Assembly: GCA_028289245.1 (NCBI GenBank)
Contig: JAQGGT010000006.1
Coordinates: 62,001-126,000, forward strand
DNA from: Candidatus Saccharimonadota bacterium
GTDB lineage: Bacteria > Patescibacteriota > Saccharimonadia > Saccharimonadales > UBA4665
Length of the DNA stretch: 64,000 bases
Direction of reading: 5' to 3'
Position numbers and translations under genes: made by a program. Below are positions 557 to 48,609 of this stretch, piece by piece. The notes beneath the pieces are model-generated. The model searched no databases. It saw only the letters and a list, made by a program, of their open reading frames with translations, and was not told where the DNA came from. Position 1 is the stretch's first letter; each line of letters begins with the position of its first letter.

Positions 557-3517
557 ATGGCAAAACAATCATTTAATGAGCTGCCAAAAAGCAGTCGTGA
601 CGTCCAGAATTCTGGTGGCGGCGTCTATGACAATAACGGCCTGCCGAAGATGAGCGACGAGGCCGAAAAAAAGCTCGACGAAAAATTCGACAAGATTGAC
701 AGCGTGCTGGCGCCCGTCAAAAAAGGCGAGGAATCCGGCGGCTTGTTTAATGGCAAGGGCGATGACAGCAAAGCGCTCGGTGCTGGCGCACTTGGTGGTG
801 CCGAGAAAGCCATAGGGGGCGCCGCTGTGGCCGGCGGAGCGGTCGGTGCCATCAGCAAGCTGGCTGGGGCGTTTGGCAATAACAAAAAAAAGACCGCCGC
901 CGGTGGCTTAAGCGTCGGTCTAGTCGCCATCGCCGTCTTTGGCGCTAGCGTAGTGGCTGGCCCACTCGAATTTATTCACCTTGCCAAAACCTTATCCGAA
1001 GCCCGCTTGAGCAGCCAGCAAGATGAGTCGAACTTCCGGCTCACTAAGGTCTTCAAGTCACTGTACTACGCCAAAAAGGACGAGGCCTACAAGACTCGCA
1101 TGGGCATCATCGGCAACGCCTACGCCGACCGAATTGAAGCCCGCTTTAACTCGGTCGGGCTAGAGTCTAAATACTCTGGGCGCCTGGGCGCCTTTAATGG
1201 CTTCGCCATTGATCGTAACGCCCCTGAATATAAGGGCAAGAATGACCCCCAGTTGACCGAATACGTCAAAGAGAAATACGGTATCGATATTAAGATTACT
1301 AACGGCAGCGCCCTCATACCCAACGACAGCGGCATTTTTGATTTTAAAGGCTATTTTAAGACCAAAAATCTGATCCGCACCAATCTAGAGGAATCCGGCT
1401 ATAGCAAGATCGGGGCCCGCATGGCGACCAGGGTGATCGGACAAAGATACGACTTAACGCTCAATCCAATCAAGAAGTTGGATGCCAAAATAACCAAAAC
1501 CGCTGACCAGAAGCTCAAAGCCTATACCGACCGGCGGTCCCGGCAGATAGACGGCGACAACAAACCCATTGGCGGTACTGCCTCAACACCGGAGACCGAC
1601 AAGGACGGGAAGCCAATACCTGGGGCAACCGAAAACGCCAGCACCGCTGAAGGCCAGGCCAAAGGAGCACTTAGCGTCGATCCCGATTCGCCCGGGAAAT
1701 TAGCGGCTTTCTCGGATAGTACTTCGCTCAAAGCTGCCGGTGGTGTGGCCGCCATAGCCGGCGTTGCCTGTATGGCCAAGGGGATCGATGATAACTACGA
1801 CCAGGTAAAAGAGGCGCAGGTGGTGGTGCCACTTATGCGTGAAGCGGGCCGCTTACTAGCTATCGGCGGCGAGATAATGAACGGTAAACCGAATGTCGAT
1901 CTGCTGCAACAGATCGGCTACGAGTCGAAGACGCTTTACAACAAAAAGACTGGGCAAACCTGGGTTAATTCATCTGGGATCAGAAAAATTACTGATGGCA
2001 CGGCTAAGGGGGTGCAGCCTGATACTATTGTAAGCAGTATTGCGAAGGGTGCGCCGTTTGCCGCCGTTACCTCCGGGCCGATCGGCGCGGCGTTAGGACC
2101 AGTCTGTAGTACCGCCGGCCAGGTGGTGGTGGGCGTAGTCGGATTCCTAGGAGGTCCGGTAAGCTTTGGCTTGGGCACGCTCGCCAGCGTTATTTTCGTG
2201 CCAACCCTTGTTTCGCATTTAGTCAGCTTCCTGGCGGGCAAGGCCGTCAACCTCAGTGACCCTAACAACTGGGGCCCAGGCATCGGTACCTACGCTGATG
2301 CCGGCACCAAAATCTTGGCCGACACCCAGGAATCGGCGGTCGGGGCCGTACGCTTAACGGCTAAGCAGCTGGGTGAGCGCTCGGCGCTGGAAACGGGGCT
2401 GCAACAGTCAGAGTTCAATAGCCAGAGTGTGGCCTACAAACTACTGAACCCCTACGATCCGCGATCGGTGGCCTCAAAACTGATCGACAATATCACACCC
2501 TCAAACAGCCAAAACGTGGCCAGTATGCTTAACGCCACCACCAACATCGGTTCGATGCTCTCCACGGTCGGCAATGCTCTTACCCCCAAGGTCCACGCCG
2601 ACAGTGCCACCGACAAAACACCGCTCGACTACGGCCTGCCGACCTACGGCTACACCGCGGCCGAGATGGACGCCCCGGAAGTCGACAACCCCTTCGAAAA
2701 CGCCAACCAAGTTGCTGATCTGCTGAATTCTTCGGCCGGTAAGGACATCATTACCCGTGTCCAAAACTGTTTTAACGTTACTCTCGTTGCCAACCAAACC
2801 TACCAGGGTGCTCAGTGGGACGCCGTCGCAGGCCAGGGCCAGCTCGTTATGTATGGCAGCAAGGCCGACGACGCCTACAACGCCAATAACTGTGGCGACC
2901 CCGGTCCGCAGTGGCTGCAAGTCCGGATGTTTATTAGCGACACCCAAACCATTAAATCGGTGGCCTGCTACGAAGGTGACGACGGCATCTGTAGCGAGCT
3001 CGGCGCCGGCAGCACAACTGGCGATGCCGCCGCCAGCACCGTCCAGTCAACCTACGGCGGCGACACCTCCGGCCAGCAGTGTAGCGCCGGTACCGACAAC
3101 GGCGTCGGTGACGGCTACCAGAACAATGAGCAGTTCAAGATCCGACTCTGCAACGTCCAGGGTATTATCGTCAATGCCCAGATTTCGGCCAACCTCAACA
3201 ACCTGCTCAACGCCGCCCACAGTGCCGGCATGGCCCTGAGCGGTGGCGGCTTCCGCAGCATGGAGGGGCAGATCGCCGCCCGTAAGACCAACGGCTGCCC
3301 AGACACCTACACCGCGCCGGCGTCATCGTGTCGTGTGCCGACGGCGAGACCGGGCTATTCTAATCACCAAATGGGCCTCGCGGTCGACTTTACGGTGGGG
3401 GGCACAACCCTCAGGGCCGGTACCAAAGAGTTTAACTGGATGAAATCTAATGCTGCCAGCTACGGCCTGAAGAACCTGCCGAGTGAATCATGGCACTGGT
3501 CGGTGGACGGAAAATAA
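557..3517 (+). CDS. Large membrane protein with C-terminal M15 (VanY-like) peptidase domain, T4SS locus
   Basis: This 986-residue protein has a Gly/Ala/Lys-rich N-terminus, a membrane segment near residues 118-138, and a hydrophobic, glycine-rich region around 495-560 that could hold more membrane helices. The last 115 or so residues carry the zinc-peptidase pattern SNHQMGLAVD (His937, Asp944) and ESWHW (Glu977, His980) of the M15B D-Ala-D-Ala carboxypeptidase family. A cysteine-containing extracellular region lies between. By position it may act as the VirB6-like or channel component fused to a peptidoglycan hydrolase; that is inference. The start is the ATG 44 bases after the VirB4 stop. 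It is followed after one base by the next gene, so the two are probably co-transcribed. Confidence 0.8.
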   Translation: MAKQSFNELPKSSRDVQNSGGGVYDNNGLPKMSDEAEKKLDEKFDKIDSVLAPVKKGEESGGLFNGKGDDSKALGAGALGGAEKAIGGAAVAGGAVGAISKLAGAFGNNKKKTAAGGLSVGLVAIAVFGASVVAGPLEFIHLAKTLSEARLSSQQDESNFRLTKVFKSLYYAKKDEAYKTRMGIIGNAYADRIEARFNSVGLESKYSGRLGAFNGFAIDRNAPEYKGKNDPQLTEYVKEKYGIDIKITNGSALIPNDSGIFDFKGYFKTKNLIRTNLEESGYSKIGARMATRVIGQRYDLTLNPIKKLDAKITKTADQKLKAYTDRRSRQIDGDNKPIGGTASTPETDKDGKPIPGATENASTAEGQAKGALSVDPDSPGKLAAFSDSTSLKAAGGVAAIAGVACMAKGIDDNYDQVKEAQVVVPLMREAGRLLAIGGEIMNGKPNVDLLQQIGYESKTLYNKKTGQTWVNSSGIRKITDGTAKGVQPDTIVSSIAKGAPFAAVTSGPIGAALGPVCSTAGQVVVGVVGFLGGPVSFGLGTLASVIFVPTLVSHLVSFLAGKAVNLSDPNNWGPGIGTYADAGTKILADTQESAVGAVRLTAKQLGERSALETGLQQSEFNSQSVAYKLLNPYDPRSVASKLIDNITPSNSQNVASMLNATTNIGSMLSTVGNALTPKVHADSATDKTPLDYGLPTYGYTAAEMDAPEVDNPFENANQVADLLNSSAGKDIITRVQNCFNVTLVANQTYQGAQWDAVAGQGQLVMYGSKADDAYNANNCGDPGPQWLQVRMFISDTQTIKSVACYEGDDGICSELGAGSTTGDAAASTVQSTYGGDTSGQQCSAGTDNGVGDGYQNNEQFKIRLCNVQGIIVNAQISANLNNLLNAAHSAGMALSGGGFRSMEGQIAARKTNGCPDTYTAPASSCRVPTARPGYSNHQMGLAVDFTVGGTTLRAGTKEFNWMKSNAASYGLKNLPSESWHWSVDGK

Positions 3518-3518
3518 T

Positions 3519-4739
3519 ATGAGTGCCAAACTTCGACTACCTTCTTACGACACGTTGTTGCGGGTTGGGCTGGCAATGTTTGTGTGGACCTTTTTGCTGT
3601 TGCATGTGTCGATGACCGTTTCGGCGCTCACGCCAGAGCAGAAGAAGGTGTTTGATAACGGCATCGATTACTACGACATCGACGAGACCGACGACGGCAC
3701 CTGTAACGTAACGGTGGCGGTGAATTTAAATGGCAACGACAACATCCAAAAAGCCTACAACTACTTGGTTGGGCGGGGCCTCACCCCCGAGCAAGCGTCC
3801 GGTGTCGTCGGCAACTTAATGCAAGAATCTGGCGTTAACCCCGCCAGCAATCAAAACGGCGGTGGTGCTGGTCGCGGCATTGCGCAGTGGTCGGTCGACG
3901 GCCGCTGGAAGGGCGTGTTGGCGCTAGCCAAAAGCGAAGGCAAAGACCCAACCGACCTAAGCGTGCAGCTGGACTTCTTGTGGTCGGAAATGTCACCCGG
4001 CGGTAGCCGCGGCGGTGTGCTAGCGGCCCTCAAGGCGACTAGCGACGTCATTAGCGCTACCACGGTGTTCGAGCAACAGTATGAAAGCGCCGGCACGCCA
4101 AACATGCCCAACCGCATCAACTACGCCCAGAGCATTCTCACCAAATATGGTGGTGGCGGCACACCAACGGTTGCTGGAACAGTAGCAGCTCCGGTGAGTG
4201 CCGGCTCAACCTGCGTCGGCTCGGGCCAGGACACCCAATTCGTCGATGGCTTCACGATTTACTCGCAATACGATCCGGCGTGGAAAGATAAGCCCTACGG
4301 CAGTTCCACCATCGGTGTGTCGGGCTGCGGCCCCAGTGCCATGGCAATGATCATCACCAACCTCACTGGTAGTAACGTCACGCCCGTCGAAACTGCTAAT
4401 TACGCTGCAAGCCAGGGCCTCTACGTTGCAGGTGAGGGTAGCAGCTGGTCGATTGGTCCGGTGCTGGCAGCCCACTGGGGCTTAAAAGCAACCGCCATTG
4501 GCAATGATATCGCCAAGATTACCGCCACCTTGCAGGCCGGTGGCTTGGTCATCGCTCCGGGGCAGGGCGGCGATCCGTATACCACCGGTGGGCACTTTAT
4601 CGTCATCCGGGGTGTAACGGCGGATGGCAAATGGAAAGTCGGCGACTCGGGTCACAAAGATACCAGTGATAAAGATTGGGACCCGCAGCAGTTAGCGGCT
4701 GCAATGCATGCCGGAGGTGTCTATGCAATTACAAAGTAG
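3519..4739 (+). CDS. Secreted lysozyme / C39-like two-domain cell-wall hydrolase, T4SS locus
   Basis: From the ATG at 3519 (406 residues) the protein has an N-terminal membrane or signal segment, then a phage-tail-lysozyme-like domain around residues 65-180 (GVVGNLMQESGVNP, GIAQWS). A papain-like C39_2-type domain follows at about 235-405, with SGCGPSA (Cys270) and GGHFIVI (His359) as likely catalytic residues. An in-frame GTG at 3483 would overlap the upstream gene and is less likely. The lysozyme part would play the role of VirB1, opening peptidoglycan for the apparatus; the second domain could be a peptidase or amidase. The domains are confident, the substrates are not. Confidence 0.8.
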   Translation: MSAKLRLPSYDTLLRVGLAMFVWTFLLLHVSMTVSALTPEQKKVFDNGIDYYDIDETDDGTCNVTVAVNLNGNDNIQKAYNYLVGRGLTPEQASGVVGNLMQESGVNPASNQNGGGAGRGIAQWSVDGRWKGVLALAKSEGKDPTDLSVQLDFLWSEMSPGGSRGGVLAALKATSDVISATTVFEQQYESAGTPNMPNRINYAQSILTKYGGGGTPTVAGTVAAPVSAGSTCVGSGQDTQFVDGFTIYSQYDPAWKDKPYGSSTIGVSGCGPSAMAMIITNLTGSNVTPVETANYAASQGLYVAGEGSSWSIGPVLAAHWGLKATAIGNDIAKITATLQAGGLVIAPGQGGDPYTTGGHFIVIRGVTADGKWKVGDSGHKDTSDKDWDPQQLAAAMHAGGVYAITK

Positions 4740-44778: not shown

Positions 44779-45178
44779 CCAGGACCGCTTACGGCAATTT
44801 GCTAAGTATATGGCTGGCGGCAGCCTCTATTTCTGGAGTGGCTACGCTATCTTTGCCGTTACCTATAGCGGTCTGGGCTGGTCGTGGATAGGGGCAAAAA
44901 TGATGGCCGATGCCGTCGGCTGGACGTTGAACTATCTAGTACAGCGTTACTGGGCGTTTATACCTGATGGCCGCCACCTGAGCGAAATAGAACACGTCGG
45001 TCGCTATATCAGCATAGAAAGCGTGGGCTTTGTGCTGGATTACTTGATCATCGGTATCCTTAATCACTTCGGCCTTTCACCGTACATTGGATTTTTTATT
45101 TCGGCTGGCTTCTTTACCGTATGGAGCTACCTCTGGTACAAATATTGGGTTTTCCCTCAGCCCAAAAGCGTGGCATAA
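44756..45178 (+). CDS. GtrA-like membrane protein
   Basis: A GTG start inside the end of the ligase-like gene gives 140 residues with four membrane helices. The order (FAKYMAGGSLYFWSGYAIF at the start, YLWYKYWVF at the end) is that of GtrA-family proteins involved in polyprenyl-linked sugar transfer. It is the second GtrA relative in the window, and the two are divergent in sequence. It closes the glycan region; the next gene is an unrelated regulator. Confidence 0.7.
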   Translation: MAKSKRTNQDRLRQFAKYMAGGSLYFWSGYAIFAVTYSGLGWSWIGAKMMADAVGWTLNYLVQRYWAFIPDGRHLSEIEHVGRYISIESVGFVLDYLIIGILNHFGLSPYIGFFISAGFFTVWSYLWYKYWVFPQPKSVA

Positions 45179-45188
45179 TGCTTGTGTT

Positions 45189-45656
45189 ATGAACGAAAAG
45201 CAAACACCATCCGTCTCGGCTGTCCGGCCAACCAAAAAACAGCGTGAACTCCTCGGCTTTATCGAGAAGTTTATTGGCGAGCACGGTTACAGCCCTAGCT
45301 ACCGCGAAGTTATGCGCGGTCTGGACTACACGTCGGTGGCTACCGTCGCGCTGCATATCAACAGCCTTATCAAACGCGGTCATCTGCGCAAACGCGAGAA
45401 CTCAGCCCGCTCGCTCGAAGTCGTCCAGGCTGATCTGCCGACGACCATCACTACCAACGAGATTGCGCCCGGTGAAGAAAAATGGTTGGTCGAGAAGATC
45501 GAACACGCCTTTACCCAGGCCGAGCAGGCCGTCGCCGAAGCTGTCGATATCGACAACCTCTATGTGCTGGTTGGGGCGCTCAAAGTCCTTGGTCTGGACG
45601 GCGCGGCCCAAAGCTTTATTCCGCGTTTGAGCGGCTTAAAGCAGGCTGCCAAGTAG
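45189..45656 (+). CDS. LexA-like winged-helix DNA-binding protein without S24 protease domain
   Basis: The ATG at 45189 gives 155 residues. Residues 14-77 match the LexA N-terminal DNA-binding domain (PTKKQRELLGFIEKFIGEHG, SPSYREVMRGL, VALHINSLIKRGHLRKR). The rest is a helical tail (about 105-155) with no Ala-Gly cleavage site and no Ser/Lys peptidase dyad, so it cannot be a self-cleaving SOS repressor. It may bind DNA constitutively or respond to another signal through the helical tail. The next gene starts one base after its stop. Confidence 0.78.
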   Translation: MNEKQTPSVSAVRPTKKQRELLGFIEKFIGEHGYSPSYREVMRGLDYTSVATVALHINSLIKRGHLRKRENSARSLEVVQADLPTTITTNEIAPGEEKWLVEKIEHAFTQAEQAVAEAVDIDNLYVLVGALKVLGLDGAAQSFIPRLSGLKQAAK

Positions 45657-45657
45657 C

Positions 45658-46332
45658 ATGTATCGGGCAGGCCTGAAGCAACGTCGTCGACGCCGCTGGC
45701 CCATCTGGACAGCGCTGCTATTGGTGCTGGTACTGATCGGTGGCGTACTATGGGTGCCCAAGCACCTCAGCGCTCATACCCAGATCACCCAATCAAAAGC
45801 CGTAGTTACCACAGTGGTAGCCGACGATGGCGCCAAAAAAACTTTTGACGAAACCGATTTTAGCTTTAAGCTACCCATCGATTGGGTCAAACTGCCAGCC
45901 GTCCCCAGCCAGTATCATATGTATCGCTATAGTAGTGGCGGCAAGACCGCTGGTATGCAAGTTATGGAAGTCTATGAGGACACGATTCCGGCTAAGTATG
46001 CCGTCAATAACATGGTGGTAGTGCAGGGCGGCGGTACCGGCATCGCCGTCGAAGGCGAAGTTTCCGACAACTGTGCCCAGTTCACCAAAGATGCTACCAG
46101 CACCAACAATGATGGCATTCTGGCAAAATGGCAGGGAGTCGACTTCCTCTGTGACCTCGGCAACCAGTCGCGCAACGTGGCCGGTACTAGCTCCCTCGGC
46201 AATCTTAATAGCGTCGCCGTTAAGTCCACTACCGGCATCGAACACAAATTCTTTTTTAGCTATACCGACAGTGGCATTAACCCCAAATTTAGTGTTTTTG
46301 TGGCTGCCCTTAACAGCTTCGGCATGAAGTAA
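45658..46332 (+). CDS. Membrane-anchored protein, unknown
   Basis: The 224-residue product begins with a strongly basic stretch (RRRRR) and a membrane anchor (WTALLLVLVLIGGVLWVP), so the C-terminal 185 residues face outward. That domain opens FDETDFSFKLPIDWVKLPA, a pattern reminiscent of PsbP-like or Gram-positive lipoprotein domains, and holds two cysteines. The start one base after the LexA-like gene suggests one operon. No function can be given. Confidence 0.6.
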   Translation: MYRAGLKQRRRRRWPIWTALLLVLVLIGGVLWVPKHLSAHTQITQSKAVVTTVVADDGAKKTFDETDFSFKLPIDWVKLPAVPSQYHMYRYSSGGKTAGMQVMEVYEDTIPAKYAVNNMVVVQGGGTGIAVEGEVSDNCAQFTKDATSTNNDGILAKWQGVDFLCDLGNQSRNVAGTSSLGNLNSVAVKSTTGIEHKFFFSYTDSGINPKFSVFVAALNSFGMK

Positions 46333-46375: not shown

Positions 46376-46499
46376 AACTTAACAACTTCACGCTGGAATC
46401 CCGTGCAATTCGGGAACTGTGCCGCAACGGTAAGCTCGCCTGTTAACAGAGATAGAGCAAGTCCGATACAGCTATAAGCCTCTCGAGCAAGGAGCACTC
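46376..46499 (+). promoter_or_regulatory. Cobalamin-riboswitch-like leader
   Basis: The leader contains GGAATCCCGTGCAATTCGGG followed by AACTGTGCCGCAACGGTAA. This is nearly the conserved core of cobalamin riboswitches: the E. coli btuB leader has GGGAATCCAGTGCGAATCTGG then AGCTGACGCGCAGCGGTAA (from memory). CAAGTCCGATAC at 46459-46470 resembles the B12 box. Candidate stems are CCCG/CGGG (46400-46403 with 46411-46414), ACTG/CGGT, and GCTG (46392-46395) with CAGC (46469-46472). The Shine-Dalgarno AAGGAG (46489-46494) lies in the loop of a GAG/CTC hairpin (46485-46499). The loop GTGC at 46403-46406 is complementary to GCAC at 46494-46497, as expected for a kissing loop that hides the ribosome site. 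The short form resembles class II (hydroxocobalamin) aptamers. Confidence 0.75.
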
Positions 46500-47960
46500 A
46501 TGGTCGGCACGGCCGAATTAGAACAAATACAAATTGATAATCAATTCTATGAGATTACCGGGGATTTTTTTGAAGAGGAGTATACACGCCCACCAGAGCT
46601 AGAGGTATATGGTCGCTCGTTCAGCACGGTCCACCGGCTTGGTGTGTTGATGGTCGGAGCCACCATCAACGAGTCCACCAAGAGTCCTGAAGCCGACCAA
46701 GCACGTGTCGAATTTTGTACCTCTGTAGAAGAGGGCTTTGGAACCGATATGGAACTTGGTGGCGGGCTAGAGGTTCGTGATTTTGACACGCGCCACGTTG
46801 TTGGTGGGAAGGTTATGGCTAAGGACCTCAAGACAGCGGTCTCTGATATGACAAACGCCGGACTTATCTGTGCGCAGGAAACGGTCAAAAAAGATGAACG
46901 CTTCCGGCCGCAACTCATCCGATCCAAATGGGATCATGAGAACGCCATCATAGTCGACGAAATGGCTCGCGGCGAGACGGGTTACAACACCCGTATCGCC
47001 GTCAGCCCGTTCCCCGAAGAAGCGGCCGCCGAAAGCGGCGACGAATACTGGCGAACTATTGGCTACGTGCCACACCTGAAGCGTGGCTTTGTGCAGATGT
47101 ATCACGCGACCGAAGCCGGTGAGGTCGTTGCTGGGTCGCTGTCATTTGACGGCAGTAATAAAGATCGGCTGCGCGCAGTGTTTGCCAAGCATAACGTCAT
47201 AATACCCGAAACAGAAGTCACCGATAACTGGCTGCAGTACGCGGTGACGGAAACGCTGTCCGAAGACCAAGCCAAGGCACTGGCCATGGACATTGCCGAT
47301 CAAGCCAAAGATCCCGGATACGTTAAGTCGACCAATACGGTGGATGTCACGCGTGAGTATCGAACGGTTATGGATACCGTCTTTGAGAATTCATATGTCC
47401 ATGCCTGCGAGTCACTGGCTCGAGGCTCCCAAACCCCCGGTGCTCGCAAGCTCATTTTTGAACTAGCCGATAACGCACAGCATTTTAACGATCGCTATGC
47501 TGACGCACTCTACAGTATGTGCGCTAACGAGCAGAAATTTAACGATGAGGACATGGCCGTGCTGCACGACCTGCTGGTGTATTCAACCATCGAGATGATG
47601 CGCGCCCTGCACCTTGATAAAAAACGGATAGCCGGCCATACAGAACAGCGCACCCCGTCGAGTGTAGCTTATCTTCAGTCGCTCGATGCCGTCGCCTTTC
47701 AGCACACGCTGGGTGATTTTGCTGCCGCGGGAGCCCAGAATAATCGTGTGTACTCAGCCTGCGGTCTATCGATTGCGGTTGGCGAGGCGGCTGCTATTGG
47801 TGAACAAGGCGTTTTTGGCGGGACTGAAGGCCTAACATTGCCACGTGAAGATAGGTATGGCTCGCTTGAATTCAAGTGCCCGAAAGGCCACACTAACACC
47901 CGACCACATGGCAAGCTGATTGAGAACTGTCGAATCTGCGGCACGAGCGTACGCTGTTAG
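46500..47960 (+). CDS. Unrecognised 486-residue protein with C-terminal zinc ribbon, under riboswitch-like leader
   Basis: The ATG lies five bases after AAGGAG at the end of the cobalamin-riboswitch-like leader. The soluble 486-residue protein has no signal peptide or membrane segment. The last 30 residues form a likely zinc ribbon: CPKGH (about 458-462), then CRICG and a terminal Cys. The middle part is helical (SLARGSQTPGARKLIFELAD; MMRALHLDKKRIAGHTEQ). I recognise no family. It is not an obvious ribonucleotide reductase, B12 transporter or methionine synthase, the usual riboswitch targets. It stands as a single gene, followed by nadD. Confidence 0.7.
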   Translation: MVGTAELEQIQIDNQFYEITGDFFEEEYTRPPELEVYGRSFSTVHRLGVLMVGATINESTKSPEADQARVEFCTSVEEGFGTDMELGGGLEVRDFDTRHVVGGKVMAKDLKTAVSDMTNAGLICAQETVKKDERFRPQLIRSKWDHENAIIVDEMARGETGYNTRIAVSPFPEEAAAESGDEYWRTIGYVPHLKRGFVQMYHATEAGEVVAGSLSFDGSNKDRLRAVFAKHNVIIPETEVTDNWLQYAVTETLSEDQAKALAMDIADQAKDPGYVKSTNTVDVTREYRTVMDTVFENSYVHACESLARGSQTPGARKLIFELADNAQHFNDRYADALYSMCANEQKFNDEDMAVLHDLLVYSTIEMMRALHLDKKRIAGHTEQRTPSSVAYLQSLDAVAFQHTLGDFAAAGAQNNRVYSACGLSIAVGEAAAIGEQGVFGGTEGLTLPREDRYGSLEFKCPKGHTNTRPHGKLIENCRICGTSVRC

Positions 47961-47969: not shown

Positions 47970-48012
47970 AGAACGGTGAATACGTCGACTAAATACTGCG
48001 AGGGTGGCCTGC

Positions 48013-48609
48013 TTGACCGCTAAACGAATCGGCATTTATGCTGGCACATTCGACCCGGTCCATGCCGGCCACATTAGCTTTGCGCTCCAAGCCATGGAAG
48101 CGGCCCAGCTGGACTGGATTTATTTCATGCCGGAGCGCCGGCCCCGCCACAAGCCTGGCGTCGAGCACTATGCCCACCGCGTCGCCATGATCACTCGGGC
48201 CGCCCAACCGCACCCCAAGTTCCGGGTGCTTGAGCTGGTTGACATCAGTTTTAGCGTCGACCGGACGTTGCCTAAACTGCTGCAAAAATTCCCCAAAGCC
48301 CAGCTGGTGTTTCTATTTGGTTCGGACGTTATCGCGATGCTGCCGCAGTGGCCGCATGTCCGCCGCCTGTTGGAGATGAGTGAGTTAGTGATCGGTGTTC
48401 GTGCCGAGGCCGATGCCGCCCAGCTGCAGCAGCAAATCAGCGATTGGACCTATCAGCCGATTGCCGTCACTATGTTCCCGAGCTTTGCCTCGGACATCAG
48501 CTCCAGCCAAATTCGCGCCGGACTACGCGACCAAAAGCCGGTGAAGGGGTTGTTGCACAGCGTGGCCCGCTACAGCAACCGGCACTGGCTATACGTATCT
48601 GTTAAATGA
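48013..48609 (+). CDS. nadD: Nicotinate-nucleotide adenylyltransferase-like protein
   Basis: The protein has the nucleotidyltransferase signature GIYAGTFDPVHAGHISFA near its N-terminus and SDISSSQIRAGLR near the C-terminus, the ISSTxIR motif of NadD/CoaD-type adenylyltransferases. At about 198 residues it fits NadD better than CoaD (about 160). NadD makes deamido-NAD. A TTG at 48013, eight bases after GAGGG, is preferred to a GTG at 48004 that overlaps that Shine-Dalgarno. Neighbours do not help. Confidence 0.75.
   Translation: MTAKRIGIYAGTFDPVHAGHISFALQAMEAAQLDWIYFMPERRPRHKPGVEHYAHRVAMITRAAQPHPKFRVLELVDISFSVDRTLPKLLQKFPKAQLVFLFGSDVIAMLPQWPHVRRLLEMSELVIGVRAEADAAQLQQQISDWTYQPIAVTMFPSFASDISSSQIRAGLRDQKPVKGLLHSVARYSNRHWLYVSVK

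Follow-up and report, generated by a model that had tools for sequence, protein, structure and literature searches.

A cobalamin riboswitch in front of class I ribonucleotide reductase genes is a known B12-sparing arrangement. On the side of B12 use, electron transfer in one class II ribonucleotide reductase proceeds via a C-terminal zinc tail (PMC5704485); on the side of B12 capture, DUF4430 is the C-terminal domain of transcobalamin (PMC4350170). Cultivated Saccharibacteria are obligate episymbionts (PMC12206443). We found that tiny, probably host-dependent bacteria of this group combine, across most groups of one order, a cobalamin riboswitch with a protein (here called the orphan) whose family has not previously been linked to B12 within the searchable literature. 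Saccharibacteria depend on B12 for DNA precursors, and most sampled genomes have the orphan as their only gene under a B12 riboswitch. Literature searches found no earlier report of B12 riboswitches in Saccharibacteria.

The leader of the orphan gene in the window, by which we mean the whole 64-kb stretch of DNA analysed, contains a short-form aptamer with a GCUG/CAGC closing helix, a GGAA...GUGCCGCAACGGU core and GUCCGAUACAGC (Table 1). RF00174 matches this leader at 46395-46469 with 28.8 bits (E 7.8e-6), slightly under the curated cut-off of 31.5, which is exceeded in 14 of 60 relatives. The covariance model R1, built from 27 leaders, gives 89.6 bits at 46392-46493, its sole match within the window, a score that is partly by construction because the 27 include the window leader. 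In these 27 leaders the named helices have 93.8% standard pairs and a covariation score of 0.433 (77.3% and 0.141 in shuffles), 12 of 20 pairs change on both sides, and the alignment far exceeds shuffled and slid controls on both the paired and the covariation measures. When the window leader is folded by itself, the minimum-energy structure does not reveal the aptamer and is uninformative (z 0.12); pseudoknotted riboswitches are often hidden from minimum-energy folding. The earlier note had called the leader riboswitch-like, and on comparative sequence grounds it is a real cobalamin riboswitch, with cobalamin its presumed ligand. A chance resemblance without function, for which the RF00174 score just below the cut-off could be cited, is extremely improbable given the covariation, the single high-scoring match in 64 kb, the recurrence of the element in 87 of 99 genomes (nearly always as exactly one copy) and its presence before class I ribonucleotide reductase and DUF4430 genes as well.

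Table 1. Features of the riboswitch-orphan locus, in window positions
Feature	Position	Strand	Details and basis
LexA-like gene	45087..45656	+	Pfam PF01726, E 2.2e-13
Cobalamin riboswitch aptamer, short form	46392..46472	+	RF00174, model R1, covariation in 27 relatives
P13-like hairpin CUCU-CGAGCAA-GGAG	46480..46494	+	Sequence; helix conserved in relatives
Orphan protein gene	46500..47960	+	ATG start, 486 aa; usually one per genome; order-restricted family
Conserved core, residues 104-275	46809..47324	+	Alignment A1; AlphaFold2 core model
Codon of C421	47760..47762	+	Cysteine invariant in alignment A1
Exchangeable C-terminal zinc-ribbon cassette	47847..47957	+	Type YGSLxFxCxKGHxNxRPHxxLIExCxxCGxSVRC
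nadD-like nucleotidyltransferase (CTP_transf_like)	48004..48609	+	Pfam PF01467, E 2.6e-20

The link between the orphan family and the B12 riboswitch, first proposed from the window alone, proves to be real and very tight. All 40 loci picked solely by protein similarity have a riboswitch upstream on the same strand. Of the 61 loci picked by RNA (40 matches of the RF00174 search, 20 from the 99-genome survey and a second switch in the window's genome), 55 have the orphan family downstream, and the others lead into DUF4430-DUF6580 alone (4), a class I ribonucleotide reductase (1) or an unclassified ORF (1). A near one-to-one coupling of switch and orphan across dozens of genera is difficult to account for unless selection related to B12 acts on it. 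Moreover, the combination of homology to an unrelated family with leaderless homologues was looked for, and the outcome left the link standing. The locus is marked by conserved neighbours: of 101 riboswitch loci, 66 have the LexA-like gene upstream and 71 the nadD-like gene downstream. In the window, lexA and the riboswitch are separated by a gene (45658-46332) for a predicted membrane-anchored protein of 224 aa with no Pfam match, and relatives of this protein occupy the equivalent site in some genomes (for example G033, G036 and G042). Three further switch-led ORFs (L200, L201 and L203, in G074, G094 and G083) match the orphan profile poorly or fail to match it and are probably extreme orphan members or further targets. 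In G032 (L079, G032:C37, 99-2763 and downstream), a second cobalamin riboswitch lies ahead of class I ribonucleotide reductase genes, an arrangement that searchable papers do not describe for Saccharibacteria.

An expression platform can be recognised from sequence in two forms. A terminator-like stem followed by a T run stands right before the start codon, between the P13 hairpin and the gene, in 64 of 98 sampled leaders, compared with 10% of shuffles. In the window P13 adjoins the gene directly, with no terminator, and the Shine-Dalgarno sequence AGGAG (46490-46494), five bases upstream of the ATG, sits in the 3' arm of P13. P13 and its loop are conserved among leaders; in relatives 94.4% of cells of the helix are paired and three of its four pairs change on both sides. 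The complementarity of P13 to the 5' arm of the terminator is 6.0 on average versus 4.4. This layout matches that expected of an OFF switch with an antiterminator, and we infer OFF polarity.

The earlier note had described the target as a cytosolic 486-residue protein with a C-terminal zinc ribbon and no recognised family, and this description holds. Intact homologues across many genomes establish that the ORF is coding. The sequence gives no sign of a signal peptide or membrane-spanning stretch, the highest 19-residue Kyte-Doolittle mean being 1.14. Neither sequence nor profile searches found a relative of the body in Pfam, NCBIfam, PHROGs, PADLOC or the PDB, and a search for viral relatives found none. 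The ribbon reads C460-P-K-G-H ... C477-R-I-C480-G ... C486; it contains two CxxC-like knuckles, with C460, H464, C477, C480 and C486 as the putative zinc-ribbon residues, and C460, C477 and C480 are invariant or almost so in alignment A1. C421, in motifs such as SAC-G, GGC-G and SSC-P, directly precedes a flexible linker. The best PDB profile matches, to ribosomal eL43 zinc ribbons (E 4e-4 and 7e-5), cover the C terminus only.

Domain searches with 34 members against Pfam-A and NCBIfam gave no known cobalamin-binding or B12-handling family among the matches listed. The orphan has no ribonucleotide reductase barrel domain detectable with Pfam or NCBIfam, NrdJ being encoded separately in the window's genome, and no match to a PduO or CobA/BtuR domain. 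We dropped a role for the orphan as adenosyltransferase because the genomes already encode a separate CobA/BtuR. In structure prediction, which had been proposed as a check, an alignment of four sequences was used; AlphaFold2 modelled the whole protein poorly (pLDDT 44.7) and the core moderately (mean pLDDT 64.9, pTM 0.64), with a predicted helix-strand-helix-strand-strand-helix-strand-helix topology, and Foldseek with these weak models found no match at E <= 0.001 in the PDB or BFVD.

Orphan homologues turned up in 24 of 99 relatives by direct search, and a profile search of 295 genomes from the order recovered them in 117. Of 70 genomes in the window's family that are at least 85% complete, 61 carry the orphan. 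In a phylum sample of 240 genomes there were only six profile matches, all from the same order, and the family is absent from the sampled genomes outside it; the suggested CPR-specific protein thus belongs to that phylum but is limited to one order rather than found throughout the CPR. The named relatives are Candidatus Saccharibacteria. Its members are highly diverged, with a mean column identity of 19% over the 34 sequences of alignment A1, and the family is fast-evolving and restricted to one order within its phylum. One large family (f35) is mostly without the orphan. The switch is missing from G069 and G092, in G069 together with CobA/BtuR, and both genomes have only a below-cut-off ribonucleotide reductase match; this pattern suggests that the parts of the B12 system may have been lost jointly.

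Compared with the proteins of G007 and G027, the window's protein has a body 61-66% identical and a different ribbon, whereas with those of G018 and G081 the ribbon is 67-73% identical and the bodies just 22%. Over 36 members, a few of whose body/ribbon cut points were set by pattern and are hence rough, identity in the body does not correlate with identity in the ribbon (Spearman 0.03, p 0.49). By this sequence comparison, otherwise diverged members exchange ribbon tails regardless of the body, which is unusual and a finding in its own right. The window's ribbon type occurs in 14 of 99 genomes, exclusively within the orphan family, which rules out for this type (type 1) a cassette common to other proteins. 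Copying from the tail of NrdJ was also ruled out, the NrdJ tails being constant and different. Long-tailed members (for example L069, L065, L083 and L060) often end past the ribbon in LAA, VAA or AAA-like residues, ends that recall C-terminal tags recognised by proteases.

A survey for B12-dependent enzymes, which the earlier note had suggested, found the class II ribonucleotide reductase NrdJ above cut-off in 89 of 99 genomes, the window's included. The adenosyltransferase CobA/BtuR is present in 56 of 60 genomes, and a PduO-type adenosyltransferase in none. Since they encode NrdJ and CobA/BtuR, these genomes need B12. The second cobalamin riboswitch of the window's genome lies outside the window (L085, G000:C1:147000-156000, 2796-3854), before genes for DUF4430 (E 3.9e-16) and DUF6580 (E 1.4e-47). 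The best PDB match of the DUF4430 protein is transcobalamin-1, at a non-significant E of 0.49. The two proteins are a probable B12 capture and membrane uptake pair, with DUF6580 as the putative permease. They share one riboswitch operon with the orphan in G016, G033, G048 and G104, and stand in its place between lexA and nadD in G012, G036 and G042. In the window's family DUF6580 occurs in five of the nine genomes without the orphan versus four of the 61 with it (Fisher p 0.001, shared ancestry ignored); of the five, two share one genus and two another.

We propose, with roughly even confidence, that an OFF switch controls a lineage-specific cytosolic zinc-ribbon protein that assists B12 acquisition under low-B12 conditions. 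With ample B12, the riboswitch would bind cobalamin, the P13 hairpin would form and the orphan gene would be shut, in most relatives through the terminator ending just before the start codon and in the window through burial of the Shine-Dalgarno sequence in P13. Under B12 shortage, the orphan protein would be made and would aid in obtaining or assimilating cobalamin, which CobA/BtuR would convert to adenosylcobalamin for NrdJ. It is the operons shared with the DUF4430-DUF6580 pair, together with the replacement of the orphan by that pair, that favour a role on the supply side. Against such a role, neither homology nor fold ties the orphan to cobalamin, and uptake would be a strange task for a cytosolic protein that has no membrane partner. 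Nor are the orphan and the pair simple alternatives, since the window's genome and four others contain both, and some genomes with NrdJ lack both switch and orphan (for example G076 and G093). A more specific form of the proposal, possible but doubtful, is an acquisition factor of a new kind: soluble, fast-evolving, made only at low B12, with a ribbon cassette that lineages exchange to match a partner, perhaps the host, and displaceable by a transcobalamin-like uptake pair.

The orphan might instead act on demand, sparing or replacing B12 use, for instance as a partner, protector or restraint of NrdJ, or by reducing the need for deoxynucleotides during B12 shortage. Of the B12 enzymes, NrdJ alone has been shown to occur in nearly all of these genomes, it too ends in a cysteine-rich zinc tail, of the kind noted above for electron transfer, and the second riboswitch of G032 governs a class I ribonucleotide reductase in the usual B12-sparing logic. 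However, the orphan ribbons vary wildly while the NrdJ tail is constant, a poor fit for a dedicated NrdJ partner, and replacement by an uptake pair favours supply; we regard action on demand as rather unlikely. Still less probable is a factor exported or transferred to the host at low B12, with the swappable tail setting partner or host specificity. Very fast sequence evolution, tail exchange independent of the body and the episymbiotic life of the cultivated members are all consistent with it, but the protein has neither signal peptide nor transmembrane segment and its operon has no secretion gene. Zinc ribbons are frequent in nucleic-acid-binding proteins, and the orphan's ribosomal eL43 matches, together with the lack of a recognised cobalamin-binding motif, would suit a regulatory or housekeeping protein that lies in the B12 regulon incidentally, with no direct B12 role. 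Given how closely switch and orphan are coupled across genera, we consider this very unlikely. A role in B12 supply remains our preferred reading and, as the single switch-controlled gene of most sampled genomes, the orphan makes the sourcing of B12 by ultrasmall dependent bacteria directly testable.

The locus resembles known systems in its parts. The ribosomal eL43 (L37Ae) zinc ribbon is similar to some of the orphan's C-terminal ribbons, but the likeness is limited to the ribbon and the orphan has no ribosomal context. With RF00174 the element described here shares core sequence, helices, leader position, the P13 hairpin and a terminator or Shine-Dalgarno platform; it differs in its short form and in a target family not tied to B12 in the searchable literature. 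The DUF4430-DUF6580 pair (PF14478, PF20221) has the same riboswitch, locus and sometimes operon as the orphan, which, in contrast, is soluble and has no sequence in common with either protein. NrdJ with a C-terminal zinc tail (TIGR02504; PMC5704485) has the same overall plan of a body, a flexible linker and a cysteine-rich extreme C terminus, but the two bodies are non-homologous and the orphan's ribbons are of several exchangeable types.
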